DNA of 64,000 bases from Dysgonomonas sp. HDW5A (lineage in GTDB: Bacteria; Bacteroidota; Bacteroidia; Bacteroidales; Dysgonomonadaceae), in the NCBI RefSeq assembly GCF_011299555.1, contig NZ_CP049857.1, forward strand, positions 2,108,001-2,172,000, written 5' to 3'. Shown in pieces: positions 4,123 through 63,210 of this stretch (position 1 is its first letter; every line of letters begins with the position of its first letter). The notes beneath the pieces were generated by a model that saw only the letters and a list, made by a program, of their open reading frames with translations, had not been told where the DNA came from and searched no databases. The translations under genes and the position numbers were made by a program.

Positions 4123-4137
4123 AAGGTCTGTGACCTT
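4123..4137 (+). repeat. Dispersed palindrome (copy 1)
   Basis: AAGGTCTGTGACCTT: 6-bp stem with a 3-nt loop, preceded by the shared flank CCAAAGCTATAAA. It lies 3' of purN, outside any coding region. Confidence 0.8.
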
Positions 4138-4154
4138 ATAATCTCAAAATGAAA

Positions 4155-4187
4155 AAAGAGCGAAAAGTGATTCACTTTTCGCTCTTT
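4155..4187. terminator. Bidirectional terminator between purN and the secreted protein gene
   Basis: A 16-bp perfect inverted repeat (left arm AAAGAGCGAAAAGTGA) around a single T, with A-rich and T-rich ends. It can end both the rightward purN transcript and the leftward transcript of the convergent gene. Confidence 0.85.
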
Positions 4188-4209
4188 CGTTATATTATAG
4201 AGTGTCTTT

Positions 4210-5310
4210 TTAATTATCGTATTTTACCTCGTACCATACTTCTCCATTTGGATTTCCTGATACAGTATTTCTGGTGCGTACTTCTTTATTAATTATTTCT
4301 TTCTTTCTAAGTCTGTTTACTTCGATCTTGTCTACTTCTTTTCCGTTGATGAAGTAGGTAGGCTCATGTCCGAATTCCGAAGTCTCTTCATCTACTACGT
4401 TTGTTATGTTTGTTGTAGTATTGTCTGAATTATTGTTGGCATAAGATGGGTTTGTTGCCGGCTTCTTTCTTAATGTGGCACGACCGGCTCCGCCGGATAA
4501 GCGTGACGACATAGAACCTGCACTTGTTGTTTGTGCTTGTTCTTTTCGAAGGTCCTCCAGTAATGCTTCTACTGCTAATGCAGCTTCTTCCATTGTTTTG
4601 TACTGAGGTGTATATTTTTTGTTAAACACCGATGTCTTTTTGGAGGTAGTCTTTGTTTGAGCCGTTTTATTTGCTTCTTTACTGATTTGATTGTTGTTTG
4701 TATTTACCTTGGTAACGGTTACATTATCAGCTTGTTCTTCGTTTGCTAATGTAATTGGTGAATTTTTAATCGTAGTAGATCTTGTCCCCACTTCTGTATT
4801 TGTTTCAGTAGCATTATTGCTTGCGGATTCTTTATGGCTTAAAACCTCTGTTGGTTTTAACGCCTCTTTTCGTATAATGCTAGACCTTACAGGAGCTTTT
4901 TCTTGTGTTGTTGCTTCTGTTCTGATTGGCTCTGCTGGTGAAACGATTCGCGTACTCAACGGTTTTTCGATAGGAGTGATTTTTGTATCTTCACTATCAT
5001 CTTTTATTAGGTAATTACTTTCGCTTTCTTCAGTTTTAACATTCTGAGGAGTGGAGGTAGTATGGGATGTTGTATCAGCTGGGGTTTCTTCTTCTTTTTG
5101 AGTTGTTGAACTACTTTGAGTTTGATAAACGACTAATCCATCGTCGTTTATGTAAAATGTATTTAGTGATTTGAACTGATTTTCAAGACGTTTTTTTTCA
5201 TTCTCGTCAATTTTAGTACTGCGAGAATCCCTGTTGGGGCTTTGTGCAAAAGCATATGATGCTATGGAAAGCAGAACTATTGTTACTGAGAGTTTCATCT
5301 TCTTATTCAT
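4210..5310 (-). CDS. Secreted Ser/Thr/Asn-rich protein of unknown function
   Basis: The product has 366 residues from the ATG chosen. An upstream in-frame start would put 22 polar residues before a normal signal peptide, so the shorter form is preferred. The signal peptide is a Lys-rich start, then L-S-V-T-I-V-L-L-S-I-A-S-Y-A-F-A, with cleavage before Q-S-P. The middle is low-complexity (Thr, Ser, Glu, Asn) and probably disordered. A short helix (M-E-E-A-A-L-A-V-E-A-L-L-E-D-L-R-K-E) and a compact C-terminal end with F-I-N-G-K-E-V-D-K-I-E-V-N may be the ordered parts. It is probably periplasmic or surface exposed. No family is recognised. Confidence 0.7.
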   Translation of the reverse strand: MNKKMKLSVTIVLLSIASYAFAQSPNRDSRSTKIDENEKKRLENQFKSLNTFYINDDGLVVYQTQSSSTTQKEEETPADTTSHTTSTPQNVKTEESESNYLIKDDSEDTKITPIEKPLSTRIVSPAEPIRTEATTQEKAPVRSSIIRKEALKPTEVLSHKESASNNATETNTEVGTRSTTIKNSPITLANEEQADNVTVTKVNTNNNQISKEANKTAQTKTTSKKTSVFNKKYTPQYKTMEEAALAVEALLEDLRKEQAQTTSAGSMSSRLSGGAGRATLRKKPATNPSYANNNSDNTTTNITNVVDEETSEFGHEPTYFINGKEVDKIEVNRLRKKEIINKEVRTRNTVSGNPNGEVWYEVKYDN

Positions 5311-5468
5311 TTCTGTTAAAAAAAGAGCATTCGTTTCGATCCATCTAACCGGATTCTTTGTTAAGGTATGCTTCAAAAACTATACGCTTTAGTTATTCTT
5401 AGAGCCTACAAATTTAACACAAATCTTTGAGATAAAAAATAGAAAAGTGTTAACCCCGTGAAAATGTG

Positions 5469-6335
5469 TCAATTTCGTCTTTGCTTATACCACACCTGAC
5501 TTGAGTTGATTATATTTTGCCAAAGTATGTAGGCTCCCGGTCCGATTGATGCAATTGGGTTCAGGTAAGTTTGTGCCATCCAGATCGAAAGTATAGTGTT
5601 TTTTTGTCCCAATCCCTGTCCTCCTGCGATAGTGTCGCTATATCGCCGTCCTAACAGCCTTCCAATGTAGAATTGTACAATGCAAATTATTAGGGTTAAT
5701 CCGAAAATTATTAGTGATGTTTGAACGTGATTACTACCTTCGAGCAGTAGGAAATTAACAGTTCGGGCAGTTACTATCATTAAGGCAATATTCCATAAAT
5801 AAAATGAATAAGACTGAGATGTCTTTATTTTATGATGAGTTTTTGGTGATATTTTCCCTAAGAGAATAGCCAGAAAGAACGGTAGCAGTAATAATACGAA
5901 TACCCGCAGTGTAATTTCTTGTAATTCTTCCCAGAAGGAAAAGCCCGAATGCCCTCCTATTATAGTAAACAATAGTGGTGCAACCACGGCAACAGTAAGG
6001 TTGCTAAGTAAACTGAAAGCGGTCAGGCTGGCGGTATTACCTCCCAACATGCCTGTAATGACAACAGCCGAAGTGGCAGTAGGTGCTAAGATGCAAATCA
6101 TTGCACTTTGGGCAATAATGGGATCTATACCGCGTATGGCGAGGTATGCGCCGATACTTCCTAACAGTTGAATTGCCAAAAGCCATAGGTGCAGCATCGA
6201 GAACCTAACTGATCTGATGGATATATTGGTATATGTAATAAGCAGCATAAAAAAGATGAGGTAAGGGGTCAAAAATGATAACTCCGATAAATAGGAGTAA
6301 AATAAGGCTCCTGTAATCATTGATATGGGCATCAT
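5469..6335 (-). CDS. BASS-type (bile acid:sodium symporter family) transporter
   Basis: An integral membrane protein of 288 residues with about nine to ten hydrophobic segments. The core P-T-A-T-S-A-V-V-I-T-G-M-L-G-G-N and the late G-L-G-Q-K-N-T segment fit the BASS/ACR3 superfamily, which moves organic anions with Na+. The substrate is unknown. A longer frame could begin at a TTG 51 nt upstream, but that TTG lies inside an exact -7 promoter box. The M-M-P-I-S start is therefore chosen, giving a leader of about 40 nt. A terminator separates it from the ABC exporter upstream, so it is its own unit. Confidence 0.8.
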   Translation of the reverse strand: MMPISMITGALFYSYLSELSFLTPYLIFFMLLITYTNISIRSVRFSMLHLWLLAIQLLGSIGAYLAIRGIDPIIAQSAMICILAPTATSAVVITGMLGGNTASLTAFSLLSNLTVAVVAPLLFTIIGGHSGFSFWEELQEITLRVFVLLLLPFFLAILLGKISPKTHHKIKTSQSYSFYLWNIALMIVTARTVNFLLLEGSNHVQTSLIIFGLTLIICIVQFYIGRLLGRRYSDTIAGGQGLGQKNTILSIWMAQTYLNPIASIGPGAYILWQNIINSSQVWYKQRRN

Positions 6336-6383
6336 ATATGATTTGATCTTTCTCAACTTTTTTCTCGTTATTTTAGTTCGATA

Positions 6384-6391
6384 CAAAGATA
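6384..6391 (-). promoter_or_regulatory. -7 promoter box of the BASS transporter gene
   Basis: TATCTTTG on the minus strand matches TAnnTTTG exactly. It rules out the upstream TTG start, since transcription would begin after it. The -33 region reads TTTA rather than TTTG. Confidence 0.55.
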
Positions 6392-6414
6392 GGTTTAAAT
6401 ATTTCTTTTAAATA

Positions 6415-6449
6415 AAAAAATGCCCGACAGAATCGTTCGGGCATTTTTT
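6415..6449. terminator. Terminator after the ABC exporter operon
   Basis: Arms AAAAAATGCCCGA and TCGGGCATTTTTT pair perfectly around a 9-nt loop. With T-runs on both strands it ends the leftward ABC transcript before the BASS promoter. Confidence 0.88.
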
Positions 6450-6477
6450 AAGTTGGAATACTCGTCAAAGCAATAAA

Positions 6478-6492
6478 AAGGTCTGTGACCTT
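6478..6492 (+). repeat. Dispersed palindrome (copy 2)
   Basis: AAGGTCTGTGACCTT with flank TCAAAGCAATAAA and downstream AATC. It lies in the 3' region of the ABC operon, between its stop codon and its terminator, and is oriented against the flanking genes. Confidence 0.8.
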
Positions 6493-6512
6493 AATCAAAA
6501 GATTAGTGATTT

Positions 6513-7799
6513 TTATTTATAAGAGAACCATTTGATAAGTTCTTTAATAGTTGGCTTTTTTCCATACATAAGGATTCCTACACGGTAAATTTTTGCCGCA
6601 AATTTTACAACAAAGAAAATACTTACATATAATATGACTATAGATAGGATTTTTTCCCATAAAGGAATTTCGAAAGGTATACGCACCATCATTACGATAG
6701 GAGATGTCAGTGGTATCATTGAGCACCAGAAAGCAAGCGGGCCATCCGGATTTTGTAGGCTGTATATACCTACATAAAAGGAAAACATAAATATGAGCGT
6801 TATAGGCATAACAAACTGTTGTGTATCTTGTGCATTATCTACCGCTGCACCGAACATAGCAAAAAGCGATGCATAGATAAGATATCCTCCGATGAAAAGG
6901 AGTAAGAAATAGATAATGATTTCGATCCAGTTTATCGAAAATAGCATCTGTATATTACCTAATTGAGAAGATATATTCTGGATGTCGGCAGCCGGAAATA
7001 GTGTGCTTTTTAATCCCAGGATAATTGCAAAGATTCCGAACCAGATGAAGAGCTGAGTAATGCCGGTAAGTCCTATTCCGATAATTTTACCCATCATCAG
7101 ATCGAAAGGACGTACAGACGAAATCATAACTTCGACAATGCGATTGCTTTTTTCTTCAACGACTCCCTGCATAACCATTGTTCCGTACATAAGTATAAAC
7201 AGATACATGATGAATGTGAAAATACCTCCGACAGCCGCTGCAATATCAGTAGATGTTTCTTTCTCGGAGCCATCCTCACTCCATCTCAGTGTTGTTACTT
7301 TTATATTTCCTGAGGTCTCAATAACATGGCGTATATCAACCATTACTTGGGTATCTATATCTGCCTTTTGTGCCAGAAGATTTATTTTGTCTGATTTTAC
7401 AATCTCCGAAAGCGTATTGTTGATATAGCCTTGTAGATCTAAAGGAACTTGTTTTTCGGAAACAAAAGCCGCAGCTGCAGAATTTTCTGTTAAGTCGCCG
7501 GTTATTTCGAGTATTCCGAATAAGTCTTTTCCTACTTTCGTTTTTAAATTATCCTCCTGATTACCTCCTACTATTTCGAATGTGTAATGATCGAATGATT
7601 TTAAGTGTGAAGCATATCTTCCGGTGTTATCAATTACCGCTATCCGTTTGGTCTCAGAATCTTTGATATTTGATAACAACAGGGGAACAAATACTAATGC
7701 AGCCATAAGAAGTGGCATTAAGATGGTGAGTACCACAAATGACTTCTTTTTTATTCGTGAAAGATATTCTCTCTTTATTATAATACTTAATGCGTTCAT
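6513..7799 (-). CDS. ABC-2 type transporter permease (NatB-like)
   Basis: Membrane subunit of an ABC exporter, 428 residues. One transmembrane segment follows the N-terminal S-R-I-K-K-K-S-F motif. A large extracytoplasmic domain (about residues 45-185) comes next, then five to six membrane segments with V-V-E-E-K-S-N-R-I-V-E-V-M-I-S-S-V-R-P typical of the NatB/ABC2_membrane_3 family. The ATG overlaps the ATPase stop by four bases (ATGA), so translation is coupled. In Bacillus NatAB exports Na+; the substrate here is not known. Confidence 0.88.
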   Translation of the reverse strand: MNALSIIIKREYLSRIKKKSFVVLTILMPLLMAALVFVPLLLSNIKDSETKRIAVIDNTGRYASHLKSFDHYTFEIVGGNQEDNLKTKVGKDLFGILEITGDLTENSAAAAFVSEKQVPLDLQGYINNTLSEIVKSDKINLLAQKADIDTQVMVDIRHVIETSGNIKVTTLRWSEDGSEKETSTDIAAAVGGIFTFIMYLFILMYGTMVMQGVVEEKSNRIVEVMISSVRPFDLMMGKIIGIGLTGITQLFIWFGIFAIILGLKSTLFPAADIQNISSQLGNIQMLFSINWIEIIIYFLLLFIGGYLIYASLFAMFGAAVDNAQDTQQFVMPITLIFMFSFYVGIYSLQNPDGPLAFWCSMIPLTSPIVMMVRIPFEIPLWEKILSIVILYVSIFFVVKFAAKIYRVGILMYGKKPTIKELIKWFSYK

Positions 7800-8701
7800 A
7801 GTGCTGTAACTGTTTGAATAAATATTTCGTTCATAGATGGCAGTTCTTCCTCAAAAGAGAGTACTTCGTATTTGTTGGTGATTTCCCTGAGAATCTCGGA
7901 GTTAGTTGATTGCACTGATTTTTTGATTCTTACTTTGGTGGTTTCAAAATAAGACTCTTTTGATTCCAACGAAAATAATTCGGAAGGAAGGTCAAAGTCG
8001 TTTCCACTTACAGTGACGGTAAAAACGTGTTTTTTGTATTTGTTTCGAATCTCCTTCACATTTCCTTGTAATACGACTTGCGATTTATTGATGAGTGTAA
8101 TTTCGTCACAAAGGGCTTCGACCGACTCCATGTTATGGGTTGAAAGAATAATTGTTTTTCCTTTTTCTTTCAATTCGAGTATCTCCTTCTTTAATAGTTC
8201 GGCATTAACAGGATCGAATCCGCTGAAAGGTTCGTCCAATATCAGTAATTCAGGATCGTGAATCACTGTCGTTATGAACTGTATTTTTTGTTGCATACCT
8301 TTTGATAGCTCTTCGACCTTTTTGTCTTTCCATGAAGTGATATTGAATTTCTCAAACCATTCATCTATTCTTCGGTTGGCTTCGTGTTTCTTTAAGCCCT
8401 TAAGCTCGGCTAAGAATAAAGCATGTTCTTTTACTTTCATCTTTTTATAGAGACCTCTCTCTTCGGGAAGATAGCCGATATTATATATATCGGAAGGAAG
8501 GGATGCTCTGCCATTGAGGAAAACTTCACCGCTGTCGGGTGCTGTAATCCGGTTTATGATCCGTATCAGAGTTGTTTTTCCGGCTCCGTTAGGACCCAGT
8601 AAACCATAGATTTTGCCCTTTGGTACTTGTATACTTACATCGTTGAGTGCTCTATGGCTTGCATATTGCTTAATTATATTTCTGGCTTCTAGGTATATCA
8701 T
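7796..8701 (-). CDS. ABC transporter ATP-binding protein (NatA-like)
   Basis: Nucleotide-binding subunit paired with the overlapping permease. The Walker A G-P-N-G-A-G-K-T-T is at residues 36-44, followed by signature L-S-K-G-M-Q-Q-K, Walker B L-L-I-L-D-E-P and switch His in L-S-T-H-N-M-E. The C-terminal 80 residues form the extra domain common in NatA/CcmA-type ATPases. At 301 residues it has the standard length. It is first gene of the two-gene operon and reads into the permease. Confidence 0.92.
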   Translation of the reverse strand: MIYLEARNIIKQYASHRALNDVSIQVPKGKIYGLLGPNGAGKTTLIRIINRITAPDSGEVFLNGRASLPSDIYNIGYLPEERGLYKKMKVKEHALFLAELKGLKKHEANRRIDEWFEKFNITSWKDKKVEELSKGMQQKIQFITTVIHDPELLILDEPFSGFDPVNAELLKKEILELKEKGKTIILSTHNMESVEALCDEITLINKSQVVLQGNVKEIRNKYKKHVFTVTVSGNDFDLPSELFSLESKESYFETTKVRIKKSVQSTNSEILREITNKYEVLSFEEELPSMNEIFIQTVTAL

Positions 8702-9116: not shown

Positions 9117-9130
9117 TAAATAGGGTATTT

Positions 9131-15083: not shown

Positions 15084-15611
15084 ATGAACGAATTTCAAAT
15101 AGTAGTTTGGCTATTGCCCATTGTATTTATGATACATGACTTTGAGGAAATAATTTTCTTCAAACCATGGGTTACTAAGAATAGTCCCTATTTGAAAAAG
15201 CGTTTTCCATTCTTAGCAAAACGTTTATTGCCACGTATGGAAGCATTGTCTGTTGCTGCATTTTCCGTCGCTGTTTTTGAGGAATTTGTATTGTTGAGCA
15301 TAATTACTTTTGCAGCTTTTTATTTTGACTATTATAGTATCTGGCTAGCAGTATTCATGGCATTTTTTATTCATCTGTTTATCCATATTATTCAATGGAT
15401 GGTACTGAAAAGATATATACCTGCCATAGTCACTGCCATACTTGCTTTACCATATTGCATGTGGGGATTTATAATCGTATTGAGGAGTCATTTATTTACT
15501 GTATCCGAAATTATTTTGCTGTCATTGGCAGGAGTCTTTTTTATGGTGCTAAATCTCCTCTTCGCTCATTTTCTTGCAGAGAAGTTCGATAAAAAAATAT
15601 CAATTGAATGA
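15084..15611 (+). CDS. HXXEE domain membrane protein
   Basis: The product has 175 residues and five or six hydrophobic segments. The motif H-D-F-E-E near residue 19 and the later acidic V-F-E-E and H-L-F-I-H segments match the HXXEE family (proposed from conserved His and Glu to be a membrane enzyme; activity not established). It sits inside the efflux operon, 12 nt after the ATPase gene, and overlaps the first permease gene by four bases, so it is translated with the exporter. This gene is not part of E. coli ybhGFSR and may be an accessory factor. Confidence 0.8.
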   Translation: MNEFQIVVWLLPIVFMIHDFEEIIFFKPWVTKNSPYLKKRFPFLAKRLLPRMEALSVAAFSVAVFEEFVLLSIITFAAFYFDYYSIWLAVFMAFFIHLFIHIIQWMVLKRYIPAIVTAILALPYCMWGFIIVLRSHLFTVSEIILLSLAGVFFMVLNLLFAHFLAEKFDKKISIE

Positions 15612-16717
15612 AACAATTTCTATCATTTGTAAAAAAAGAATTTTATCATATATTTCGTGATACACGAACCATGATGATTATATTGGGTATTCCGGTTATA
15701 CAGATGCTCCTTTTTGGTTTTGCGATAACAACCGAGGTGCGTAATGTGCAGGTGGCTGTATTCGATCCGTCGAAAGATATTTCAACCGAGCGTATAATCA
15801 ATCGGTTGGACGCCAGCAAGTATTTTCATGTAGTAAAGATGTTGAATAATCCGGATGAAATTAATTCGATCTTTAAAAAAGATCATAATATTAATCTGGT
15901 TATTGTATTCGATGAAAATTTCAATGAAAACCTCCTGCATACAGGTGAGGCATCCGTTCAGTTGATTGCAGATGCTACAGACCCCAATCAGGCTACAACT
16001 CTTACTGGATATGCTACTAACATAATAAACTCTTATCAACAAGAGCTTCTAGAAGGGGCTAAAATTCCGATTCAGATAAAGCCCGAGGTAAGGATGCTTT
16101 ATAATCCACAGATTAAAAGTGCATATAATTTTGTCCCCGGAGTAATGGGGTTGATCTTTATGTTGATCTGTGCTATGATGACTTCTATCTCTATTGTCCG
16201 GGAAAAGGAGACCGGTACTATGGAAATATTATTGGCTTCGCCTGTGAAACCCATCTATATCATTGTGGCGAAAGCAATACCCTATTTTGTAATCTCCATG
16301 GTAAATCTCACCACAATACTTTTGCTGTCTGTTTATATTTTGAAAGTGCCGGTAACGGGAAATTTTTATTCACTGATCGGTATTTCTTTACTCTTTATAA
16401 TGGTGGCATTATCGTTGGGTATACTCATTTCAACTATTGCTCAAACGCAAGTTGCTGCTATGCTGGTATCGGGTATGGGGATGATACTTCCTGTTATGAT
16501 TCTGTCGGGAATGATATTTCCTATCGAAAGTATGCCTGTCATTCTGCAATGGGTATCGGATATCATTCCCGCAAAATGGTATATCTCAGCGGTAAGAAAA
16601 TTAATGATACAGGGACTGGGCATCACTGCTGTATATAAAGAACTGTCCGTTCTGTTAGGGATGTTCGTTTTTTTAATATTTGTAAGTCTCAAAAATTTCA
16701 AGACAAGGCTTGATTAA
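15608..16717 (+). CDS. ABC-2 type exporter permease 1 (YbhS-like)
   Basis: The product has 369 residues. It begins with the family motif F-V-K-K-E-F-Y-H-I-F-R-D-T-R-T and one membrane helix. A periplasmic domain spans about residues 45-170. Five C-terminal membrane helices follow, including I-V-R-E-K-E-T-G-T-M-E-I-L-L-A-S-P-V. The pattern is that of YbhS/YhhJ-type ABC2 permeases. It probably forms a heterodimer with the next permease and is driven by the two ATPases upstream. The substrate is probably a hydrophobic drug or toxic compound, by analogy. Confidence 0.9.
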   Translation: MKQFLSFVKKEFYHIFRDTRTMMIILGIPVIQMLLFGFAITTEVRNVQVAVFDPSKDISTERIINRLDASKYFHVVKMLNNPDEINSIFKKDHNINLVIVFDENFNENLLHTGEASVQLIADATDPNQATTLTGYATNIINSYQQELLEGAKIPIQIKPEVRMLYNPQIKSAYNFVPGVMGLIFMLICAMMTSISIVREKETGTMEILLASPVKPIYIIVAKAIPYFVISMVNLTTILLLSVYILKVPVTGNFYSLIGISLLFIMVALSLGILISTIAQTQVAAMLVSGMGMILPVMILSGMIFPIESMPVILQWVSDIIPAKWYISAVRKLMIQGLGITAVYKELSVLLGMFVFLIFVSLKNFKTRLD

Positions 16718-16741
16718 GGTCACAGCACTTTCTTGTTGCTT
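16711..16741 (-). repeat. Decayed copy of the dispersed palindrome
   Basis: On the minus strand the sequence AAGCAACAAGAAAGTGCTG continues into TGACCTTAATC. It retains the left flank and right arm of the family but has lost the perfect stem. It overlaps the stop codon of permease 1 and fills the gap before permease 2. Confidence 0.45.
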
Positions 16742-21537: not shown

Positions 21538-21621
21538 ATTTGAGTAGCATTAGCTATCTAATACAGCATAGTTTAATTGTAACTATAGGTTGTAATTATA
21601 CTTGCCACAGCTTAATATAAA

Positions 21622-25760: not shown

Positions 25761-25775
25761 AAGGTTGCAAACCTT
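25761..25775 (-). repeat. Dispersed palindrome (copy 3, compensated variant, before dnaE)
   Basis: On the minus strand AAGGTTTGCAACCTT: compared with AAGGTCTGTGACCTT, a C-to-T change on the left is matched by a G-to-A change on the right, so the stem is kept. The left flank is CCAACAAAGCACTAA. It is 16 nt from the dnaE ATG and oriented with it. Confidence 0.75.
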
Positions 25776-25960
25776 TTTAGTGCTTTGTTGGGTGAATACA
25801 TTAAAATAACTCTGATCCAATCACCGAATATTGATAAGCATATTGGTGTTTGATTTTATAAAGGTACCCTTTTTATCGAAAAAAAGATACCTATATTTTA
25901 TTGATTTTATCAATGCTTTTTTAACTCGAAAAGAATCAATACTATATCTCAATTATTTAA

Positions 25961-26924: not shown

Positions 26925-26939
26925 AAGGTCTCAGACCTT
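26925..26939 (-). repeat. Dispersed palindrome (copy 4, before ribF)
   Basis: On the minus strand AAGGTCTGAGACCTT, perfect 7-bp arms around one G, with flank CCAAAGCAATAAAA. It is 10 nt from the ribF start and oriented with it. A second small palindrome CATCCAATTTGGATG lies about 35-50 nt further upstream. Confidence 0.82.
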
Positions 26940-27071
26940 TTTTATTGCTTTGGCCTAAGGATACTCCCCCGATTCATCCAATTTGGATGGGTTGAGTAAG
27001 CCCTACAAGCCGAAAGTATATTGTTAAATACGTTTTTGTGTATAACCTGATTGGCAGGTCTTAGGTGATCT

Positions 27072-28440: not shown

Positions 28441-28868
28441 GTAGTTAAAAGAGTATAATGAAATTGAACGTATATCCAACTATTAATTGGCATGATTAAT
28501 AAATTCTATCTGGTTGCTTAAAAGCAGCAATAGAAAACATTTAGTGATACATTTGAAAACCATAGTTGCTTTTATCTATCCATATAGAGCTTATCTGAAA
28601 AACAGAACCTAAATAAGAAGCTGTATAAAAAGTGTCACTTTTGTCACTTTTGTAATGTTTTTGGGTATTATGTTTTGATAATTAGATGTTTGTGAAAATG
28701 ACAAAAATGTACATATACTTGTTTGGATTTGTTGCCTTTGTAACTTTTTTGTATGGCTTATGTATGCTTTTGTAACCTTATTTTTTCAGTCTTTAGTTGT
28801 ATTAAATAGTTGATATTTCGTTAATTTGTATATCATTTAAGTTTGCAGAGCTATTTGTTGCTTTGGCT

Positions 28869-28925
28869 GTAGGGGTGAACCTGTGTGTTCACCTATTTCG
28901 GACAGACACATAGGTCTGCCCCTAC
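28869..28925. repeat. 57-bp element of nested inverted repeats
   Basis: The outer ends are GTAGGGG and CCCCTAC. Each half is itself a palindrome: GGTGAAC-CTGTGT-GTTCACC on the left, GACAGAC-ACATAG-GTCTGCC on the right. The two halves are imperfect inverted copies of each other. It looks like a small mobile palindromic element. Confidence 0.7.
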
Positions 28926-28980
28926 CAACAATAATGTGTCATTACATATTTTCTTTTACTTAAATTAGAATCATTTGACT

Positions 28981-40617: not shown

Positions 40618-40640
40618 ATTAAGGTTGCAGACCCTTTTAT
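40618..40640 (-). repeat. Variant copy of the dispersed palindrome, before queA
   Basis: On the minus strand AAAAGGGTCTGCAACCTTAA: both arms are recognisable but the stem is imperfect. It is oriented with queA, opposite to the copy at 40688 that faces the other gene of this divergent region. Confidence 0.5.
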
Positions 40641-40687
40641 TTTTGTATTTTGTAGAATAATAGATTCAGCAAATTGTAAGAACAAAT

Positions 40688-40700
40688 AGGTCTGAGACCT
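40688..40700 (+). repeat. Dispersed palindrome (copy 5, before the DUF2027-Smr gene)
   Basis: AGGTCTGAGACCT, with left flank ACAAAT and right CAAAAC. It is 17 nt before the ATG and oriented with the gene. Confidence 0.78.
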
Positions 40701-40717
40701 CAAAACAAGATATTATT

Positions 40718-41764
40718 ATGAAAGTTGGAGATAAGGTACGTTTTCTAAATACAACAGGTGGTGGCATTGTAAAAGGTTTTCAAGGTAAAGACATAGTCAT
40801 CGTAGACGATGATGGTTTTGATACACCTATACTTATGCGTGAGTGTATTGTAATTGAACCCGCTAATGAAGCACAAGTGCGTCAGTCTGTAAAACCAAAA
40901 GCACAGGAAGTAACTGCATATCAAAAGGAACCAAAGACTGAAAGTCATGTTCCTGTTGTGGAAACTAAAGAGGGAGAGCGTATTACTGCGTGTTTGGCTT
41001 ATCTGCCTTTAGATATAAAAACACTCAGCACAACAGGATACGAATGTTATTTGGTGAACGATAGTAATTTTTATCTCTCTTATAATTATATGAGTAGATC
41101 AGAACAAGGATGGATTAGTCGTGCAGTTGGTACTATAGAACCGAATACCAAGATTTTTCTGGAAGAATTTACGAAGACTGACCTGAATGATCTGGAAAAA
41201 GTTTGTGTTCAATTTATCCCTTATAAGATTGATAAACCGTTCAGCTTAAAGAATCCTTGCTCTTCGGAAATCAGAATTGATACGGTTAAGTTTTATAAGC
41301 TGCATAGTTTCAAAGAAAATGACTATTTCGATGACGATGCCATTATCTATTATCTGATGAAAAACGATCTTACAGAAAGAGAATTATTCGTTTCGGCAGA
41401 GGCTATTGAAGAAGCCATGAAGGAGAAAAAGCAATTGGATCGCCAACAGCCACAACCTATTAAGAAGAAAGATACAGCTTCATCTATTCTTGAGGTCGAT
41501 TTGCATATCGAAGAATTGATAGATAGCACAGCCGGATTAGATGCTAAGGATATTCTTGAATATCAGATAACAAAATTCAGGGAGATACTAGATGAGAATA
41601 AAAGCAAGAAAGGTCAGAAAATTGTTTTTATTCATGGTAAAGGCGAGGGTGTTTTAAAGAAAGCGATATTAAATGATCTGAAAACCCGATACAGTCATTT
41701 GAATTATCAGGATGCTTCTTTTAAAGAGTACGGATTTGGTGCAACTATGATTACTATAAAGTAA
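40718..41764 (+). CDS. DUF2027 protein with C-terminal Smr domain
   Basis: The product has 348 residues and no signal peptide. The N-terminal K-V-G-D-K-V-R-F-L-N-T-T-G-G-G-I-V is a small Tudor/KOW-like barrel. The middle (about 85-225) is the DUF2027 domain. A charged linker follows, then a Smr domain from about 260 with D-L-H-I-E-E-L and the catalytic-type loop F-I-H-G-K-G-E-G-V-L. Smr domains cut or bind structured nucleic acids. It is not MutS2: the ATPase core is absent. Function is unknown, possibly nucleic-acid related. Confidence 0.85.
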   Translation: MKVGDKVRFLNTTGGGIVKGFQGKDIVIVDDDGFDTPILMRECIVIEPANEAQVRQSVKPKAQEVTAYQKEPKTESHVPVVETKEGERITACLAYLPLDIKTLSTTGYECYLVNDSNFYLSYNYMSRSEQGWISRAVGTIEPNTKIFLEEFTKTDLNDLEKVCVQFIPYKIDKPFSLKNPCSSEIRIDTVKFYKLHSFKENDYFDDDAIIYYLMKNDLTERELFVSAEAIEEAMKEKKQLDRQQPQPIKKKDTASSILEVDLHIEELIDSTAGLDAKDILEYQITKFREILDENKSKKGQKIVFIHGKGEGVLKKAILNDLKTRYSHLNYQDASFKEYGFGATMITIK

Positions 41765-41842
41765 GAGTAATATCTAAAGGATTTAATGTCGTATTTGAAG
41801 ACTATAGCAATTGATAGGTTGCTATTTAGGATGAAAAATAAA

Positions 41843-41857
41843 TAGGTCTGAGACCTT
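41843..41857 (+). repeat. Dispersed palindrome (copy 6)
   Basis: TAGGTCTGAGACCTT then AAAATAAAGC. It is 17 nt before the next ATG and oriented with it. Confidence 0.8.
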
Positions 41858-41874
41858 AAAATAAAGCAAGTGAT

Positions 41875-47096: not shown

Positions 47097-47111
47097 AAGG
47101 TCTGATACTTT
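47097..47111 (+). repeat. Decayed copy of the dispersed palindrome
   Basis: AAAGGTCTGATACTTTAATA keeps the left arm, while the right arm is mutated. It overlaps the panB stop codon. Confidence 0.35.
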
Positions 47112-47928
47112 AATAGCTTTCTTTTTCGTTAGGAAAGTCTGATTCCTTGACGTCCTTTATATATGATTGCACTGCTTCACTCATTATGGTATGAAGGTCT
47201 GCATAACGACGTAAGAATTTAGGTGAGAAGTCTTTATTAATGCCCAGCATATCATGAATCACGAGTACTTGTCCGTCAACACCTCCACCTGCTCCTATAC
47301 CGATCATAGGAATCGTTAATTCTTTGGCAACTTGTTCTGCTAATGTAGCCGGAATTTTCTCCAATACTATACCAAAACATCCAACTTCTTGTAGAAGGCG
47401 TGCATCATCAATGAGTTTTTGAGCTTCCGTTCCTTCTTTAGCCCGTACAGCATAGGTACCATATTTATTTATCGATTGAGGCATTAATCCCAAATGTCCC
47501 ATAACCGGAATACCTGCATCGATAATCTTTTTAATATCTGCAATAATTTCTTTACCTCCTTCAATCTTTAAAGCATCGGCACCTGTCTCCTTCATTATTC
47601 TGATTGCAGCTTCAAGAGAAAGCGTGGGGTTACCCGAGCAGGTTCCGAATGGCATATCTACAATAACTAAAGCTCGTTTTACTCCATTTACAACCGATCT
47701 GCCATGATAAATCATCTGATCAAGCGTCATAGGTAGGGTGGTCGTGTTTCCTGCCATAACATTGGAGGCCGAATCGCCTATCAGAATTACATCCATGCCT
47801 GCCTGATCTACGATCGAAGCCATAGAAAAATCATACGCTGTAAGCATTGAGATCTTTTCGCCTCGTTGCTTCATTTCCAGTAAACGATGAGTCGTTACTT
47901 TGCGGTTGTCTTCTGTATAAGTTGACAT
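47110..47928 (-). CDS. panB: 3-methyl-2-oxobutanoate hydroxymethyltransferase
   Basis: First step of pantothenate synthesis: ketopantoate from 2-oxoisovalerate and methylene-tetrahydrofolate. It has 272 residues, standard. Motifs are [10 protein letters not shown] near 28, the metal ligands in I-L-I-G-D-S and [20 protein letters not shown] and I-G-I-G-A-G near 211. It is transcribed from its own -7 box with a palindrome copy in the leader. Confidence 0.95.
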
Positions 47929-48012
47929 AATCTTTAAATAAAAGTTAGAATTTAATGCACATCTTAAAATTATACCTAAAAAGTAGGTCTTATATTCAAG
48001 ATGGATAACAAA

Positions 48013-48027
48013 AAGGTCTAAGACCTT
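48013..48027. repeat. Dispersed palindrome (copy 7, in the panB leader)
   Basis: AAGGTCTAAGACCTT, perfect arms around one A, with left flank AACAAA. It is 85 nt before the panB start, downstream of the panB -7 box. Confidence 0.8.
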
Positions 48028-54116: not shown

Positions 54117-57100
54117 TTATTTCTTCTTCGCTTTTTCTTTAGCAAGACGTTCTTTTTCCTTGCGCTCGGCTTCACGCTGTTTTAGGCGTTCCTTGCGTTC
54201 ACGTTCACGCTCTTTTAATCTTTCCTTTTGAGCTTTTTCTTTTTCTTTTAGCTCCTGCTGACGTTGTTTACGTGCATCTTCCCGAGCCTTTACAGTTTCT
54301 TTTTGTTCATTTATTTTAGCTTCTGCGGCGGCTCGTTCTTCGGCTTGTTTTTGTTTTTCGGCATTACTAATCGAATCTAGTCGTGCCTGTTCAGCATCTA
54401 TCAGAGCTTGTTCTTCGGCTTTGACCTTAGCTTTGCGTTGTTTCTCAAGATCTTTGAGGCGTTTGTTTTCTGCCTTTTGAGCAGCCTTTTCTTCCTTAGT
54501 CAACTTGGGTTTATTTCCTGATGAGTTGAACAGATTTTTCAGACCGTCTACAGGATTATTTATTATGTCAATTGTTTTGTTTATAACATTGTCAACTTGC
54601 TCTATCTGATCATCCGATAAAACATCACTTACTCCTATTTCTTTTCCTTTATCTTCAGATTCCTCTTCACTAACAAGAGGGGTAATTTTCCTTGGAGGTG
54701 CAGGTTTAGTCGGTTTTACCTCAGGTTTAGGTTCTTCGACCACAGGAGTTGTTGTTTCTGGCTCAGGCTGGGGTTTATCTTCTGCTGTTGGCGGAATCTT
54801 ATTTCGCTGTTGATTCCAATACATGATTAATTTGATCATTTCTCTAGTATAATTCTTCTCAAAGAATAAGAAATACTCATTGAGGCTCTTACCATTCATC
54901 AGTGCAACAAAGTTGTCGGTAGATATCGGAAGAGGAATTATCGACGGATCGAGTTCAGACATTAATGAGTTTTTGTCGAAAGCTTTATCTATATACATTT
55001 CAATTTCAGCCAGCGATTTAAATCCTTTTACCTGTAACATTTCTAACGAATTGGCTTCAGTAAAGCTTAAGTCAAATGTTTGATAAATGAAGCTGGAGAA
55101 ATTATAGCTTGCAACATCATATATAAGCTGATTTTTATCTATAGTTTGCGATTTATAGATAAACAAAAGCATGTATTCTGCATCCGGATTAGCGACAAAG
55201 TCTACGCCTGCCATTTCTTCCGGATTCTGGCCTGTTCCGAATCTTATATCCCATATCATTCCACGTGCAGGAGATGAGTCGGATGATAATGTTTTACCTC
55301 CCAGAATACCTTTTAGCATATCAGAGGCTAATGGCGTAACATCAGCTTTGGGATACTTTTCGATCAGGTCACGTAAGTGAGTCTTAAATTCATCAGGATC
55401 ATTGGTCTGGGCATACGTAAGAGCATTTAAAAACATAAACTTGGGTATCAATGCTGAAAGAGGATACTTTTCTTTCATCGACTGATAGTTTGCCCTAACA
55501 GTGTTTATGTTTGCTGCCAGATACGCCTCATATGTTTGCTGGTAAAGATTATCTTCCAGCTGGTGCATATTCCTGAGATTCCATTCATAATTAGGATCGG
55601 CTAATGCGGCCGCATAAGAACTTTTAGGAAAAGAGTTTAAGAGATAACGTCTATACAACTCTGTCATTTCTTTATTTCCTAACCTCAAGTAAATGAGAAA
55701 TAATTGATAGTATATTTCCTCTCTATTCGGTCCGTTTGGAAAACGAGAAAGATTAGTTGTGAAGGCATCTATCGCTAAGTTGTAATCTTCCAGTTTGTCT
55801 TTGTAGAGTTTACCTAGACTAAAGAATGCATTTTCGATGATTTCGTTCGAAGCTTTAATGGCTTCTGGTGTCATCGGGATTTGTTGCAGATAAAATTCGG
55901 GCGAATACACGTCTTGACTAGCAGGCGTTTCTGCCTTTTGTTCTGATGTTTGGGCTGAATCCTTAGGTGTTTGGTCTGCTTCGGGATTGGTATTGCCTTC
56001 ATCGAAAGTGGTTACGCGTTTATTACGCCTGCGCCAATTATCTTCCAGTTTTCGGTTGCCCCATTTTCGTTGGAAGGCGACCTTTCCTTGGTTTACTAAT
56101 TGAGGATTATAAAAATAGAATGATGACGAATTGCCACCAATGTTGACCGGTGCTGAAGGAATATTTGGAGAACTCTGTTCGAAGAACGGACTGTTTGGGT
56201 TTATCGCCGACGAATTATTATTCTCTCTTTCTAACTTTTGCTGTTCTCTCTTTTCGGCTTCTTCTTTTTTTCTAAGGTCGGCAATTATCTTTGTGACAAC
56301 AGCTACTTGTTCTTCGTAAGGCTTTTGTGCCAGATTTTGGAGACTGTCCTGTAAATGTATAGCTTCTATATGGACAACTAATTCGTCCAGCACTTCTGCA
56401 CGAAGGGTAACTCTGGGGTATGCTTCGTGCTTTTTACTTATAGAAGCTAGTGCTTCGGAGTAGTTTGGCTGAGCTTTTGCGTATTTTTGCTGTGCAAAAT
56501 AAATATCCCCCAAGGCAATCTGGCTCAGAGCTTTGTCGTAACCGTTACGAGTGCTTGCTTTGACGGCTTTTTCGTATTCAGTTATAGCTTTTGCCGTATC
56601 TTGGTTGTTTAAATAGATGTTTCCGATAGCATAATATACCTGATCGAGATATTCTTTGTTTTTAGGATCTTTACTCATTTTTGTAAGTAATGATAATATC
56701 TCTTGCTTATTGGAGCTGTTTACAAACGAGGCTTGTTGCATCTTAGCATTGAATGAGTAAAGGTAGGGTGTGTTAAGCCCTGTTACGCTTTCAAAAGCTT
56801 GAAATGCTTTTTCCTGATTCTTGGTATGCGAATACAGTTGTCCCAGCAAATATTTCATGCGTATTTTTTGAAACCCGTCGCTCTCATCTTTTATGGCTTG
56901 TTCCAGGAATGGTATTGCTTTTTCGTATTCTTTTCTTTTGATCAGAAAATCGGCATATACTTTATTGTATTCTGCGGTTAGATTTTCGGGAACACCTCCT
57001 GCCAGTTTTATCTTATGAAATATATCTTCTGCTTCGTAAAACCACCCCATAGCCGTGTATGCTTTGGCGATCCATATGCGTGCTTCGGCTACAACATCAT

Positions 57101-57599
57101 TATCTCCTTTGTAAAGACGGGTTACGTATAATAGAGTCGATACAGCTTGTATGTAGTCTTCGTTCTGGAATTCGGCTTTACCTAGTAGTAACCATGCATT
57201 TTTCAGGAAAGGATTAAACTCTTGTTGTTTTAGCCATGCCTGATATTCCTGATTTTTTCTCTTGGCCGGGTCGCGTTCGGGTTTGGTGCGTATTGAGTGG
57301 ATTTTTATTGCTTTTGTTGTTTTATCTACCGTAACATCAAAGCTGCCTCCCGTTCTTTGCTTTAGTTCTTCCTCTTCAATTGCTCCCGGATATATTGATA
57401 TTATTTGTGAGAGATTGTCTTGATAACCTGCTTGTTTTGATTTTAAAGATCCTTTGTAAGCTTCGTTTGCATTAAAATAAATGTTGTACTTGGTGTTTAT
57501 GGCATGGTACATACGGGTTGTTGATGTATTCTTTTTAGAAGCACACCCCAACATTGCCAGAATAACGACAGACGCTATTATATATTTATACTTAAACAC
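54117..57599 (-). CDS. porW: Type IX secretion system lipoprotein PorW/SprE
   Basis: The product has 1160 residues with a GTG start. The lipoprotein signal I-I-A-S-V-V-I-L-A-M-L-G-C-A-S-K-K-N has the anchor Cys19. The conserved head R-M-Y-H-A-I-N-T-K-Y-N-I-Y-F-N-A-N-E and many TPR helices (about 120-450 and 570-760) match PorW/SprE, which links the T9SS translocon with the motor complex. The last 180 residues are extremely Lys/Glu/Arg/Ala-rich and should form a long charged helix. This fits the type IX sorting tail on the LRR protein at 18111. Confidence 0.87.
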   Translation of the reverse strand: MFKYKYIIASVVILAMLGCASKKNTSTTRMYHAINTKYNIYFNANEAYKGSLKSKQAGYQDNLSQIISIYPGAIEEEELKQRTGGSFDVTVDKTTKAIKIHSIRTKPERDPAKRKNQEYQAWLKQQEFNPFLKNAWLLLGKAEFQNEDYIQAVSTLLYVTRLYKGDNDVVAEARIWIAKAYTAMGWFYEAEDIFHKIKLAGGVPENLTAEYNKVYADFLIKRKEYEKAIPFLEQAIKDESDGFQKIRMKYLLGQLYSHTKNQEKAFQAFESVTGLNTPYLYSFNAKMQQASFVNSSNKQEILSLLTKMSKDPKNKEYLDQVYYAIGNIYLNNQDTAKAITEYEKAVKASTRNGYDKALSQIALGDIYFAQQKYAKAQPNYSEALASISKKHEAYPRVTLRAEVLDELVVHIEAIHLQDSLQNLAQKPYEEQVAVVTKIIADLRKKEEAEKREQQKLERENNNSSAINPNSPFFEQSSPNIPSAPVNIGGNSSSFYFYNPQLVNQGKVAFQRKWGNRKLEDNWRRRNKRVTTFDEGNTNPEADQTPKDSAQTSEQKAETPASQDVYSPEFYLQQIPMTPEAIKASNEIIENAFFSLGKLYKDKLEDYNLAIDAFTTNLSRFPNGPNREEIYYQLFLIYLRLGNKEMTELYRRYLLNSFPKSSYAAALADPNYEWNLRNMHQLEDNLYQQTYEAYLAANINTVRANYQSMKEKYPLSALIPKFMFLNALTYAQTNDPDEFKTHLRDLIEKYPKADVTPLASDMLKGILGGKTLSSDSSPARGMIWDIRFGTGQNPEEMAGVDFVANPDAEYMLLFIYKSQTIDKNQLIYDVASYNFSSFIYQTFDLSFTEANSLEMLQVKGFKSLAEIEMYIDKAFDKNSLMSELDPSIIPLPISTDNFVALMNGKSLNEYFLFFEKNYTREMIKLIMYWNQQRNKIPPTAEDKPQPEPETTTPVVEEPKPEVKPTKPAPPRKITPLVSEEESEDKGKEIGVSDVLSDDQIEQVDNVINKTIDIINNPVDGLKNLFNSSGNKPKLTKEEKAAQKAENKRLKDLEKQRKAKVKAEEQALIDAEQARLDSISNAEKQKQAEERAAAEAKINEQKETVKAREDARKQRQQELKEKEKAQKERLKERERERKERLKQREAERKEKERLAKEKAKKK

Positions 57600-58616: not shown

Positions 58617-58646
58617 AAAAAGCTTCTATTTTTAGAAGCTTTTTTT
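58617..58646. terminator. Terminator after the PorT-like gene
   Basis: AAAAAGCTTCTA pairs with TAGAAGCTTTTT around a 4-nt loop, followed by a T-run. Confidence 0.85.
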
Positions 58647-58722
58647 ATTGGGTATAAATAGAGTCTATCAGCTTTGCTCTATTATTAACTATCTAGTTTT
58701 CTGCAAATAGACTAAAAAGGTG

Positions 58723-58730
58723 TATTTTTG
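58723..58730 (+). promoter_or_regulatory. -7 box of the ygiQ-like gene
   Basis: TATTTTTG, exact consensus. The start codon follows only seven nt later, which implies a leaderless or nearly leaderless mRNA. Confidence 0.55.
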
Positions 58731-58737
58731 CGTCCAA

Positions 58738-60618: not shown

Positions 60619-60783
60619 TTCAGCTATTTGATATTTTATTTTTACAGAGTAACGAAACACTATAACGAAGGATAAATTATAATTGTTAACTTTACTTTTG
60701 TTAAGTAAGTAAAAGTCTTTTGTAATGTACTTTAAAGGTATATGTGGATATTAGCATGCTTACTGCCTCAATAGATAACAAAT

Positions 60784-60797
60784 GGGTCTGTGACCTT
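60784..60797 (+). repeat. Dispersed palindrome (copy 8, before the nucleoside kinase gene)
   Basis: GGGTCTGTGACCTT then AAAATAAAAA. It is 13 nt before the ATG and oriented with the gene. Confidence 0.75.
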
Positions 60798-60810
60798 AAA
60801 ATAAAAATAT

Positions 60811-62478
60811 ATGAATCAAATTTTTCAAGTATTCTGTAAGAATGACAACCAGTATCATTATTTACCTTTGGGTATTACTTTAGCAGAGGCTCAGAAATTA
60901 TTGAAAATCGAAACGCCTTATCAGATCGTTAATTGTAAAGTAAATAACAAAACAGAATCGCTTGATTACAAGCTGTATCAACCCAAGCATATCGAGTTTG
61001 TAGACTTGAGTGAGTCTTCGGGGATGAGAACTTATGTTCGTTCTTTGTGCTTTATATTAGCAAAAGCGATTTCGGAAGTTTTTCCTAATGCCAGAATGAG
61101 AATAGAACATCCTATTTCTAAAGGATATTATGGGAGAGTAGAGGGCAAAGACAAGCTTTCGGACAAAGATATTAGTAAGATAAAGGCAGTAATGGATGAT
61201 CTGATTAAAGAAGATATTCCATTTGTAGCATTAGAAGATGAAAAGGATAAGGTAATACAACTTTTCAGAGAACGTGGCTTTGAATCTAAGGCTTCGTTAT
61301 TGGAAGCCTCAGATTCAGTGTATTCTAAATACTATCGTTTAGGGGATTATTTCGATTATTTTTATGGGTATTTAGTACCTTCAAGTGGATATATAAAGTT
61401 ATACGATATTGAACCATATCTGAATGGGTTTTTATTACGTGTGCCCAATAGAAATAATCCCGTGGAATTAGAACCCCGTATCGAACAACCTAAGATGCAA
61501 CAGGTTTATCTGGAGCATTTAAAGTTTCTGAATATACTGGGTTTGGAAAATGTTTCGGACTTAAACAGGGCGAACAAAAACGGAGGTATGTCGGATGTGG
61601 TAAAAGTTGCTGAGGCTTTGCAGGAAAGGTCTATCGGCGATATTGCTGAGAAAATAGCCGGTCGCTTCAAAAAAGGAGTGCGTATTGTGATGGTTTCGGG
61701 TCCTTCTTCATCAGGAAAAACGACATTCCGAAAACGTCTTGAGGTGCAATTGATGGTAAACCTCATAAAGCCTGTCGGAATTTCGCTAGATGATTATTTT
61801 GTAAATCGTGCAGACACACCCAAAGATGAGAAGGGCGATTATGATTATGAATCATTATACGCTTTGGATCTTAAACAGTTCAATGACGATATGTCGCGTT
61901 TGTTGAAAGGTGAAAAGGTGTCTTTGCCTACTTATAATTTTACAACCGGACAGCGTGAATATAACGGGCATGAACTTCAAATAGACGAACATAATGTTAT
62001 CATTATAGAGGGGATTCATGGTCTAAACCCGGAGTTAACCAAGCAAATAGATGACAGTAAGAAGTTCTTGATATACGTATCGGCTCTTACTAGCATATCG
62101 TTAGACGATCATAACTGGATATCTACTACCGATAACCGTTTAATCAGACGCTTGGTAAGAGACTTTAATTACCGGAATTATTCGGCTATTGATACCATTT
62201 CGAGATGGGATAGTGTACGACGTGGTGAAGAAAAATGGATTTTCCCTTTTCAAGAGAATGCAGATGTAATGTTCAATTCAGCTATTATGTATGAATTGGC
62301 TGCATTGCGTAAATACGCCGAACCGATCCTGATTCAGGTACCTAAAACAGCTCCTGAATTTGCTGAGGCGAGTCGCTTACTTAAATTTCTTAGTTATTTC
62401 AGTTATATAAATGATTCGGAGATGCCGCCAACATCATTGTTGAGAGAGTTTCTGGGTGGAAGTAGCTTCACATATTAA
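60811..62478 (+). CDS. TGS/ThrRS-like domain fused to a uridine-kinase-like nucleoside kinase
   Basis: The product has 555 residues. The first ~60 residues resemble a TGS domain (L-P-L-G-I-T-L-A-E-A-Q-K-L). About 65-225 resemble the second additional domain of threonyl-tRNA synthetase (H-P-I-S-K-G-Y-Y, with other His lost). From about 290 a phosphoribulokinase/uridine kinase domain has P-loop G-P-S-S-S-G-K-T-T (297-305), the D-D-Y-F motif and the G-I-H-G-L-N-P segment. It probably phosphorylates a nucleoside; the N-terminal part may sense tRNA or a nucleotide. A palindrome lies just before the start. Confidence 0.88.
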   Translation: MNQIFQVFCKNDNQYHYLPLGITLAEAQKLLKIETPYQIVNCKVNNKTESLDYKLYQPKHIEFVDLSESSGMRTYVRSLCFILAKAISEVFPNARMRIEHPISKGYYGRVEGKDKLSDKDISKIKAVMDDLIKEDIPFVALEDEKDKVIQLFRERGFESKASLLEASDSVYSKYYRLGDYFDYFYGYLVPSSGYIKLYDIEPYLNGFLLRVPNRNNPVELEPRIEQPKMQQVYLEHLKFLNILGLENVSDLNRANKNGGMSDVVKVAEALQERSIGDIAEKIAGRFKKGVRIVMVSGPSSSGKTTFRKRLEVQLMVNLIKPVGISLDDYFVNRADTPKDEKGDYDYESLYALDLKQFNDDMSRLLKGEKVSLPTYNFTTGQREYNGHELQIDEHNVIIIEGIHGLNPELTKQIDDSKKFLIYVSALTSISLDDHNWISTTDNRLIRRLVRDFNYRNYSAIDTISRWDSVRRGEEKWIFPFQENADVMFNSAIMYELAALRKYAEPILIQVPKTAPEFAEASRLLKFLSYFSYINDSEMPPTSLLREFLGGSSFTY

Positions 62479-62539
62479 GATTATAGAAATACATTTATCG
62501 CCAATTAAGTAATAGAACCAACTTAAAAATGCGTGGGTA

Positions 62540-62571
62540 TTTGTCAGTTACAATAATTGTTTATATTTTTG
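62540..62571 (+). promoter_or_regulatory. Promoter of rplS
   Basis: TTTG, 20-nt spacer, then TATTTTTG: the best full match to the Bacteroidota promoter pattern in the window. The leader is about 70 nt. Confidence 0.72.
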
Positions 62572-62649
62572 CATCCGCTTTGCGTAATCTCTGACGAGAC
62601 TAACTCGTGAATATTGCGTATTGTTTTACAATATAAAGCTATAATAGTC

Positions 62650-63006
62650 ATGGATTTAATGAAGATTGCACAAGATGCATTTGCTACAGGTAAAGAACAT
62701 CCTCAATTTAAGAGTGGAGATACTGTAACTATAGCATATCGTATCAAAGAAGGTAACAAAGAGCGTGTACAGCAGTATCGTGGTGTTGTTATCAAAATCG
62801 GCGGACACGGCGCTAAAAAACGCTTTACTGTACGCAAAATGTCAGACAATATTGGTGTAGAGCGTATCTTCCCTCTTGAGTCTCCATTTATCGACAGTAT
62901 TACTGTAAATAAAGTTGGTAAAGTTCGCAGAGCGAAACTATATTACCTACGTGCCCTTACAGGTAAAAAAGCAAGAATTAAAGAAAAGAGAGTGGCTCGC
63001 GCTTAA
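62650..63006 (+). CDS. rplS: 50S ribosomal protein L19
   Basis: A structural protein of the large subunit at the subunit interface, 118 residues from the ATG before D-L-M-K-I-A-Q. A non-ATG start 36 nt upstream is rejected on length. Typical motifs are [37 protein letters not shown] and R-R-A-K-L-Y-Y-L-R. It has its own promoter and a strong terminator. Confidence 0.97.
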
Positions 63007-63022
63007 TCTTTTCTCACTTCAT

Positions 63023-63056
63023 AAAAAAGCACTTCAAGCAATTGAAGTGCTTTTTT
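63023..63056. terminator. Terminator of rplS
   Basis: AAAAAAGCACTTCAA and its complement (15 bp) around loop GCAA, 17 nt after the stop codon. Confidence 0.9.
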
Positions 63057-63078
63057 ATTTAGATGTAGATGTAACAAA

Positions 63079-63093
63079 AAGGTCTGAGACCTT
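63079..63093 (+). repeat. Dispersed palindrome (copy 9)
   Basis: AAGGTCTGAGACCTT with left flank AACAAA and right AACAA. It lies between the rplS terminator and the dnaG promoter. Confidence 0.8.
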
Positions 63094-63137
63094 AACAATA
63101 TAATTGAAGTTTATTTCTCAAGTAACATTGAGTATTT

Positions 63138-63169
63138 ATTGTTATATCTTACAACTATAACTATCTTTG
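63138..63169 (+). promoter_or_regulatory. Promoter of dnaG
   Basis: ATTG, 20-nt spacer, TATCTTTG (exact -7 box). The predicted start near 63176 puts the next palindrome inside the 5' leader. Confidence 0.65.
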
Positions 63170-63195
63170 TTTATTGTGTTTGCCAAAGCAATAAA

Positions 63196-63210
63196 AAGGT
63201 CTGAGACCTT
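63196..63210 (+). repeat. Dispersed palindrome (copy 10, in the dnaG leader)
   Basis: AAGGTCTGAGACCTT with the full left flank CCAAAGCAATAAA. It lies between the predicted transcription start and the ribosome-binding site, 24 nt from the ATG. Confidence 0.85.

Follow-up and report, generated by a model that had tools for sequence, protein, structure and literature searches.

The 64,000-nucleotide stretch of the Dysgonomonas sp. HDW5A genome analysed here (the window) contains a family of 15-bp palindromes lying between genes, and the palindrome very probably forms the right-hand end of a small mobile element that is non-autonomous and resembles a miniature inverted-repeat transposable element (MITE), with about 90 bp between duplicated TA dinucleotides. 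The family is real and intergenic. The window holds 24 strand-matches to the palindrome at up to three mismatches, whereas 100 shuffles averaged 1.72 and never exceeded 6. With up to two mismatches, the host genome (4,298,355 bp, a single contig) yields 263 forward and 268 reverse matches, far from the chance level given by the reversed-pattern control (2 and 1), and the exact sequence AAGGTCTNAGACCTT occurs 64 times genome-wide and not at all in the control. Nor are copies equally common in genes, as only one of 228 matches to a profile of the element has more than 60% of its length within a called gene, while called genes make up about 86% of the 1.18 Mb sampled; genes were called with a simple hexamer caller, by which some genes are missed and some starts trimmed.

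The initial annotation, made from the window sequence alone, had listed ten clear copies and four decayed ones. All ten clear sites exist, with two shifted by one base (40688 to 40687 and 60784 to 60783), and all ten lie outside open reading frames (ORFs) of at least 90 amino acids as had been claimed; those at 25761 and 60783 match the 15-mer only at three mismatches. The four decayed sites are present, at 16716, 35007, 40621 and 47097, but the profile of the longer unit backs only 40621, weakly (E 0.03), and those at 16716 and 47097 each overlap a stop codon by two bases. The list omitted a copy with a decayed hairpin at 28838-28963 and left-end parts at 21541-21611 and 28526-28575.

Structure of the repeat unit

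The palindrome forms the right end of a directional unit of about 92 bp, which reads TA, then AGTAA…TATTTAATG…CAATAAAAAGGTCTGAGACCT, then TA. BLAST comparison of 4.2 kb of the window with the genus gave many short matches at the hairpins and 17 that span 74-108 bases, all running to one side of the hairpin at 41843. Two subfamilies (A and B) were aligned, giving a unit that ends in the hairpin and, over three rounds, a 94-column profile that sets the unit length at 93-94 positions. The earlier estimate of about 30 bp is therefore too short for the unit and corresponds to its best-kept part, the right end, which also exists as right-end-only parts. In the profile of 69 full copies the left edge is T (.88) A (.81) followed by AGTAA, and the right edge is GACCT followed by T (.90) A (.87). 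Outside both TAs the DNA is AT-rich with no strong preference, apart from A (.59) after the right TA and T (.54) before the left one. The foot of the hairpin is A/T on both sides and carries no GTAG or CGTC tag.

The interiors of the copies vary while both ends are unchanged, and one copy is nested within another copy. One size class of about 125 nt has a GTAG-type interior, a GTAGGGGC...CCCCTAC hairpin pair like those of repetitive extragenic palindromes (REPs) and bacterial interspersed mosaic elements; it is seen in the window at 28838-28963, at loci L158, L113 and L114, and at others. Two copies in genome G000 (C1, 592010 and 3563242) have identical flanks over the 135 bases compared, so a longer segment may be duplicated there.

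Filled and empty sites between species

To compare matching sites, 304 kb around the window was set against 258 kb of Dysgonomonas alginatilytica (G001; contig C3 is NZ_QICL01000003.1, with locus L084 identical letter for letter and at matching coordinates), and the joints between colinear blocks with gaps of up to 1,500 bases were inspected. The two syntenic stretches carry 181 and 194 unit matches per Mb. Units are held by 42 of the 61 joints (17 in the window genome only, 20 in D. alginatilytica only and five in both), and thus lie behind many of the intergenic differences between the two species. An example clean to the single base is the D. alginatilytica copy at C3:241024, since the site it splits reads as an ordinary TAA stop in the window genome. 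At 19 empty sites with small gaps, joining the flanks with one TA was the sole best arrangement in nine and joint best in five, several of these alignments scoring too low to mean much. The unit is short, non-coding and multicopy, with a target-site duplication and presence or absence at matching sites. Ends kept around other interiors, together with filled and empty sites, are the behaviour of a non-autonomous transposon in which the ends alone matter. A transposase acting in trans would recognise both ends and insert the unit at TA, and copies that break genes would be lost, leaving the surviving copies intergenic.

The filled and empty sites also bear out the claim in the initial annotation that these are copies of a unit and not only convergent operator sites. 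A palindrome with many intergenic copies is what would be expected if a DNA-binding regulator used the perfect palindrome as its operator. This reading was dropped because homology reaches about 75 bp to one side only and because copies are present or absent with a TA duplication, leaving clean one-TA empty sites; copies also occur at stop codons and in convergent spaces, and a covariance model built from 51 full copies finds no match in 40 of 61 genomes of the family. An operator role is accordingly next to incredible.

Position relative to genes and stop codons

The 105 copies in the syntenic stretches are distributed close to the share of intergenic bases, with 36 forward and 36 reverse in co-directional spaces, 23 in divergent and 10 in convergent spaces (1.33, 1.09 and 1.23 copies per kb of intergenic DNA, respectively). 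Their right ends, however, are placed much less evenly with respect to stop codons. In 1.36 Mb from G000, G001, G004 and G075, not placed on known copies except for the window, the hairpin end shares its TA with a stop codon in 29 of 164 copies, where 2.0% is expected (p 6e-19). The next commonest distance between hairpin end and stop accounts for four copies, and the left end lies on a stop codon in only 3 of 101. By genome, stop-docked right ends number 14 of 63 in G004, 11 of 47 in G001 and 4 of 47 in G000. In a larger merged sample, which overlaps the first and was in part chosen around listed copies, 42 of 208 right ends are docked on a stop against 2.2% expected (p 1.8e-27), as are 3 of 114 left ends. 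The hairpin end is found on stops about nine times more often than expected.

Both ends can supply TAA equally, which makes the left end a fair control for accidental truncation of genes. Right and left docking differ by Fisher's test in the first sample (p 1.8e-4) and in the merged one (p 3.0e-6), and also among full copies only (16 versus 3, p 0.004, and 21 versus 3, p 2.8e-4, respectively); full copies of the syntenic stretches alone give 7 versus 2 (p 0.18). Among 28 full copies present in one species only, the hairpin end is docked in five and the left end in one, with one copy included in both counts. This one-ended preference offers a simple, countable system for asking whether targeting or selection places small mobile DNA at gene ends. 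The match in D. alginatilytica to the gene of a PorW/SprE-like lipoprotein of type IX secretion (54117-57599 in the window) has a unit with a GTAG-type interior exactly on its stop codon.

Copies could also be dispersed intrinsic terminators, kept because transcription would stop at the series of stop codon, hairpin and T-run (TAAGGTCTCAGACCTTTTTATTG). A hairpin and T-run do stand directly after the stop in the 42 docked right ends of the merged sample, and the T-run beside the hairpin is on that strand only. The hairpin is weak, however, at -5.5 kcal/mol, short of the strong GC hairpin of a terminator, and the 42 stop-docked hairpins are no better kept than the other 166 (4.26 versus 4.40 of 5 pairs formed, p 0.25; energy, p 0.20; T-run, p 0.54). 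Furthermore, 35 of the 42 stand before a co-directional gene, compared with 709 of 925 gene 3' ends, and convergent ends are not enriched. The next start codon lies at most 34 nt from the unit in 11 of 17 full co-directional cases, and a terminator would not need a full unit of about 90 bp with a TA duplication. Selection as terminators is thus improbable. The preferred reading, though weakly supported, is that a TAA with a small hairpin directly after it may give the upstream gene a 3' end that is well tolerated or of slight benefit, short of a true terminator; such a role has been proposed for REP elements. A fairly unlikely alternative is that the two ends of the element are treated differently at gene ends, and that the hairpin end is brought to stop-codon TAs during insertion and not by later selection; a TA-specific transposase of the hosts, belonging to none of the four families searched, would be responsible.

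A promoter function was considered from TATACTTG upstream of the hairpin, which we take to be a Bacteroidetes -7-like motif. The equal numbers of forward and reverse copies in co-directional spaces lend it no support, and it was rejected.

Search for a transposase and weighing of the evidence

Profiles of four transposase families were searched in the six genomes of the genus. DDE_3 (IS630-type) is found in none, DDE_Tnp_1 in one as a fragment, and DDE_Tnp_1_2 in one below the cut-off. Y1_Tnp has one match in each of three genomes and none in G004 or G005, which carry 476 and 252 palindrome matches, so that the RAYT (REP-associated tyrosine transposase) type of enzyme that the initial annotation had proposed looking for gains no support. 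This counts against a REP/RAYT family in which a Y1 transposase would move the palindrome as a REP. The palindrome is short and intergenic, and its proximity to stop codons resembles that reported for GTAG REPs (PMC3733652), but the foot of the hairpin has neither tag and the unit has TA at both ends, which together make membership of that family highly unlikely.

Several observations weigh against the mobile-element interpretation. No transposase partner was found among the four families in the six genomes, and a scan of 0.56 Mb of syntenic DNA for outward-facing end pairs and larger indels revealed no transposase within a unit, the one case examined among the 12 outward pairs of the two stretches being a pair that flanks additional DNA in D. 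alginatilytica. TA stands on both sides in 31 of the 52 full copies of the two syntenic stretches and is missing on one or both sides in the other 21. At five of the 19 empty sites another number of TAs fits better, and at least one joint counted as D. alginatilytica only (joined stretch, own positions 179896-180015) appears to hold a decayed copy missed by the profile. The copies are diverged, with a mean column identity of 63% over 51 full copies. Terminal inverted repeats are weak by a shuffle test: over 24 bases the observed score was reached by 23 of 5000 shuffles for subfamily B and by 4458 for subfamily A, and over 38 bases by 543 and 1514, respectively. Finally, the sample from the second genus (G075) has no stop-docked right end among seven. 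A copy's own two ends pair no better than the ends of different copies (p 0.86).

At L214:8880-11887 in D. alginatilytica (C3), two units whose hairpins face outward flank about 3 kb of DNA that carries HAD, DUF6080 and UbiA genes and no transposase; this joint measures 4,374 bases there and 901 in the window genome.

Conservation of the hairpin

The stems of 140 copies contain nine two-sided Watson-Crick changes, every one of them within the inner five pairs; under independent decay, about three two-sided changes of whatever kind would be expected there. In the outermost pair there are five two-sided changes, none of which pairs, and one-sided changes in the inner five pairs number 49 in the left arm and 20 in the right. 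Subfamily history can produce the two-sided changes, and recognition of the end can produce the skew between arms. These compensating changes, and the hairpin kept near a start codon in three species at 60783, are the features that an RNA regulatory element (a 5' leader or small RNA) conserved for its structure would show. RNAalifold, in contrast, predicts only three pairs at about 0 kcal/mol over the 51 full copies, and there is no Rfam match in the window. In 12 insertions shared between species, unit bases outside the hairpin are 58% alike compared with 81% in flanking intergenic DNA, and conservation as a functional RNA is thus a very doubtful explanation. In eight ungapped shared copies hairpin bases are kept at 97 of 120 positions versus 305 of 494 in the rest of the unit (p 7e-5), a figure that drops four gapped sites of the 12, with which the hairpin stands at 144 of 229, and that comes from copies picked by a profile needing the right end.

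Distribution among genomes

Copy number is very uneven among relatives, the element being common in the genus of the window and patchy in a second genus. Forward palindrome matches (up to two mismatches, 41 genomes) number 552, 476, 263, 252 and 89 in five members of the genus and 1 in the sixth, which is 62% complete. Outside the genus G019 has 25, G023 has 11 and G040 has 110, and the other 32 genomes have 0-4. The covariance model matches 21 of the 61 family genomes, including all six of the genus, with at least 150 matches in each of G000, G001, G004 and G005, 71 in G003 and 1 in G002. In the second genus (g6) 11 of 12 genomes match, from 1 to at least 70 each, G055 and G075 being among those with the highest counts (at least 70). 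G019 has 24 matches and three other family genomes have 1-2 each, two of these being weak. When 119 genomes drawn from across the order were searched under a stricter threshold and filters, only G000 and G010, both of this family, had matches, and the other 117 had none. Phage, plasmid and virus collections gave no match to the subfamily B consensus or the exact right-end pattern.

G040, which belongs to another family, was rejected as a carrier in spite of its 110 palindrome matches, as five of its loci show a different repeat and the model gives no match. Its own short repeat (L164, L168, L178) surrounds a similar palindrome and is TAAGTAAGCCACATAAAATAGGTC...ACTTACTTA-like at L168.

Comparison with known repeats

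Among the published repeats compared, the nearest kinds are RUP, BOX, Correia elements, REPs and the MITEs of Porphyromonas. RUP of Streptococcus pneumoniae is 107 bp long, has about 110 copies and inserts at TA (PMC2229807, PMC3049150). The Dysgonomonas unit is likewise short, multicopy and inserted at TA, but the terminal inverted repeats of RUP match IS630-Spn1, while the Dysgonomonas unit has unequal ends, and none of the genus genomes searched has DDE_3. Among S. pneumoniae coding sequences, 58 overlap BOX, and in 36 of these BOX forms the 3' end and gives the stop codon (PMC3049150). The provision of stop codons is shared, but BOX is built of modular boxA, boxB and boxC; the two are likened by description. 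GTAG- and CGTC-tagged REPs are intergenic hairpins near gene 3' ends that often give the stop codon (PMC3733652), and differ in their tetranucleotide tag and, for GTAG, in the link to RAYT. A GTAG-like repeat does occur in the Dysgonomonas unit, but as the interior of one size class.

Porphyromonas gingivalis is a member of the Bacteroidales, and Correia elements of Neisseria have a TA target and long symmetric ends. BrickBuilt of P. gingivalis is distinguished by its 23-nt repeat core, by ends of the IS5 type (GAGACC...) and by duplications of differing length (PMC4596501); it and other P. gingivalis MITEs are intergenic like the Dysgonomonas unit, but BrickBuilt is much longer. Correia elements, for which promoter activity is reported (PMC10969869), are also small repeats adjoining genes, in different hosts. 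Stop-codon provision has thus already been reported for BOX and GTAG REPs and is not new here. As far as searches of the open-access literature show, the novelty lies in the family as such, in the inequality of its two ends and the variability of its interior, and in the counts showing that one end alone prefers stops. Searches for Dysgonomonas with 'miniature inverted-repeat' or 'repetitive extragenic' found nothing in that literature, from which subscription papers could differ, and searches with the palindrome or core spelled out found nothing beyond a Bordetella paper.

Copies in the window

E-values of the window copies come from one profile search. Full-length elements lie on the forward strand at 4046..4138 (E 1e-18; hairpin 4123-4137), 47935..48027 (E 7.8e-7) and 63120..63211 (E 1.3e-19, the best in the window). 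The first has the stop codon of ORF 3481-4059 in its left end, and the matching place in D. alginatilytica is without a unit; the second is common to both genomes; the third is absent from Dysgonomonas sp. HGC4 and D. alginatilytica. A nearly full subfamily B element at 41774..41858 (+; E 1.5e-8) is lacking at the matching place in D. alginatilytica and G004. Two reverse-strand variants are a 112-nt element with a different interior at 26925..27036 (E 1e-8), which sits 10 bp upstream of a ribF-like ORF and is missing at the matching D. alginatilytica place, and a 126-nt variant at 28838..28963 (E 7e-8) with normal ends, a GTAGGGGC...ACCCCTAC interior and a decayed hairpin.

Right-end parts are found at 6452..6493 (+; E 1.1e-8; hairpin 6478-6492; matching D. 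alginatilytica place without a unit), at 25761..25800 (-; E 1.3e-3; with a divergent hairpin and a 14-nt gap here in D. alginatilytica) and at 63060..63094 (+; E 4e-5), the last after a ribosomal L19-like ORF and not in HGC4 or D. alginatilytica. Left parts lie on the forward strand at 21541..21611 (E 9e-4), without a hairpin, and at 28526..28575 (E 2.6e-3). The decayed hairpins at 16716..16730 (-) and 47097..47111 (+), which the profile does not find, adjoin the stop codons of ORFs 15608-16717 and 47110-47928 (-), respectively.

A right-end-like hairpin at 40679..40701 (+; E 2e-3), 5' of ORF 40718-41764, is also present in D. alginatilytica with one stem pair altered on both sides. Beside it, an old right-end-like hairpin at 40620..40644 (-; weak, E 0.03) lies upstream of a queA-like ORF. 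A hairpin occurs at the same place in G001, G005 and G003 and not in G004, that is, in four species with the window, upstream of a TAATTTTG motif that is presumably promoter-like.

An old full-length element at 60702..60798 (+; E 3.8e-8) lies 12 bp upstream of where ORF 60811 starts, and a hairpin occupies the corresponding position in HGC4 and D. alginatilytica; the protein encoded at 60811-62478 is 95% identical in HGC4 and 94% identical in D. alginatilytica. Beside this copy, HGC4 (L031, about 3034-3806) has about 770 extra bases between YgiQ-like and kinase-like genes, which look like an inserted gene.

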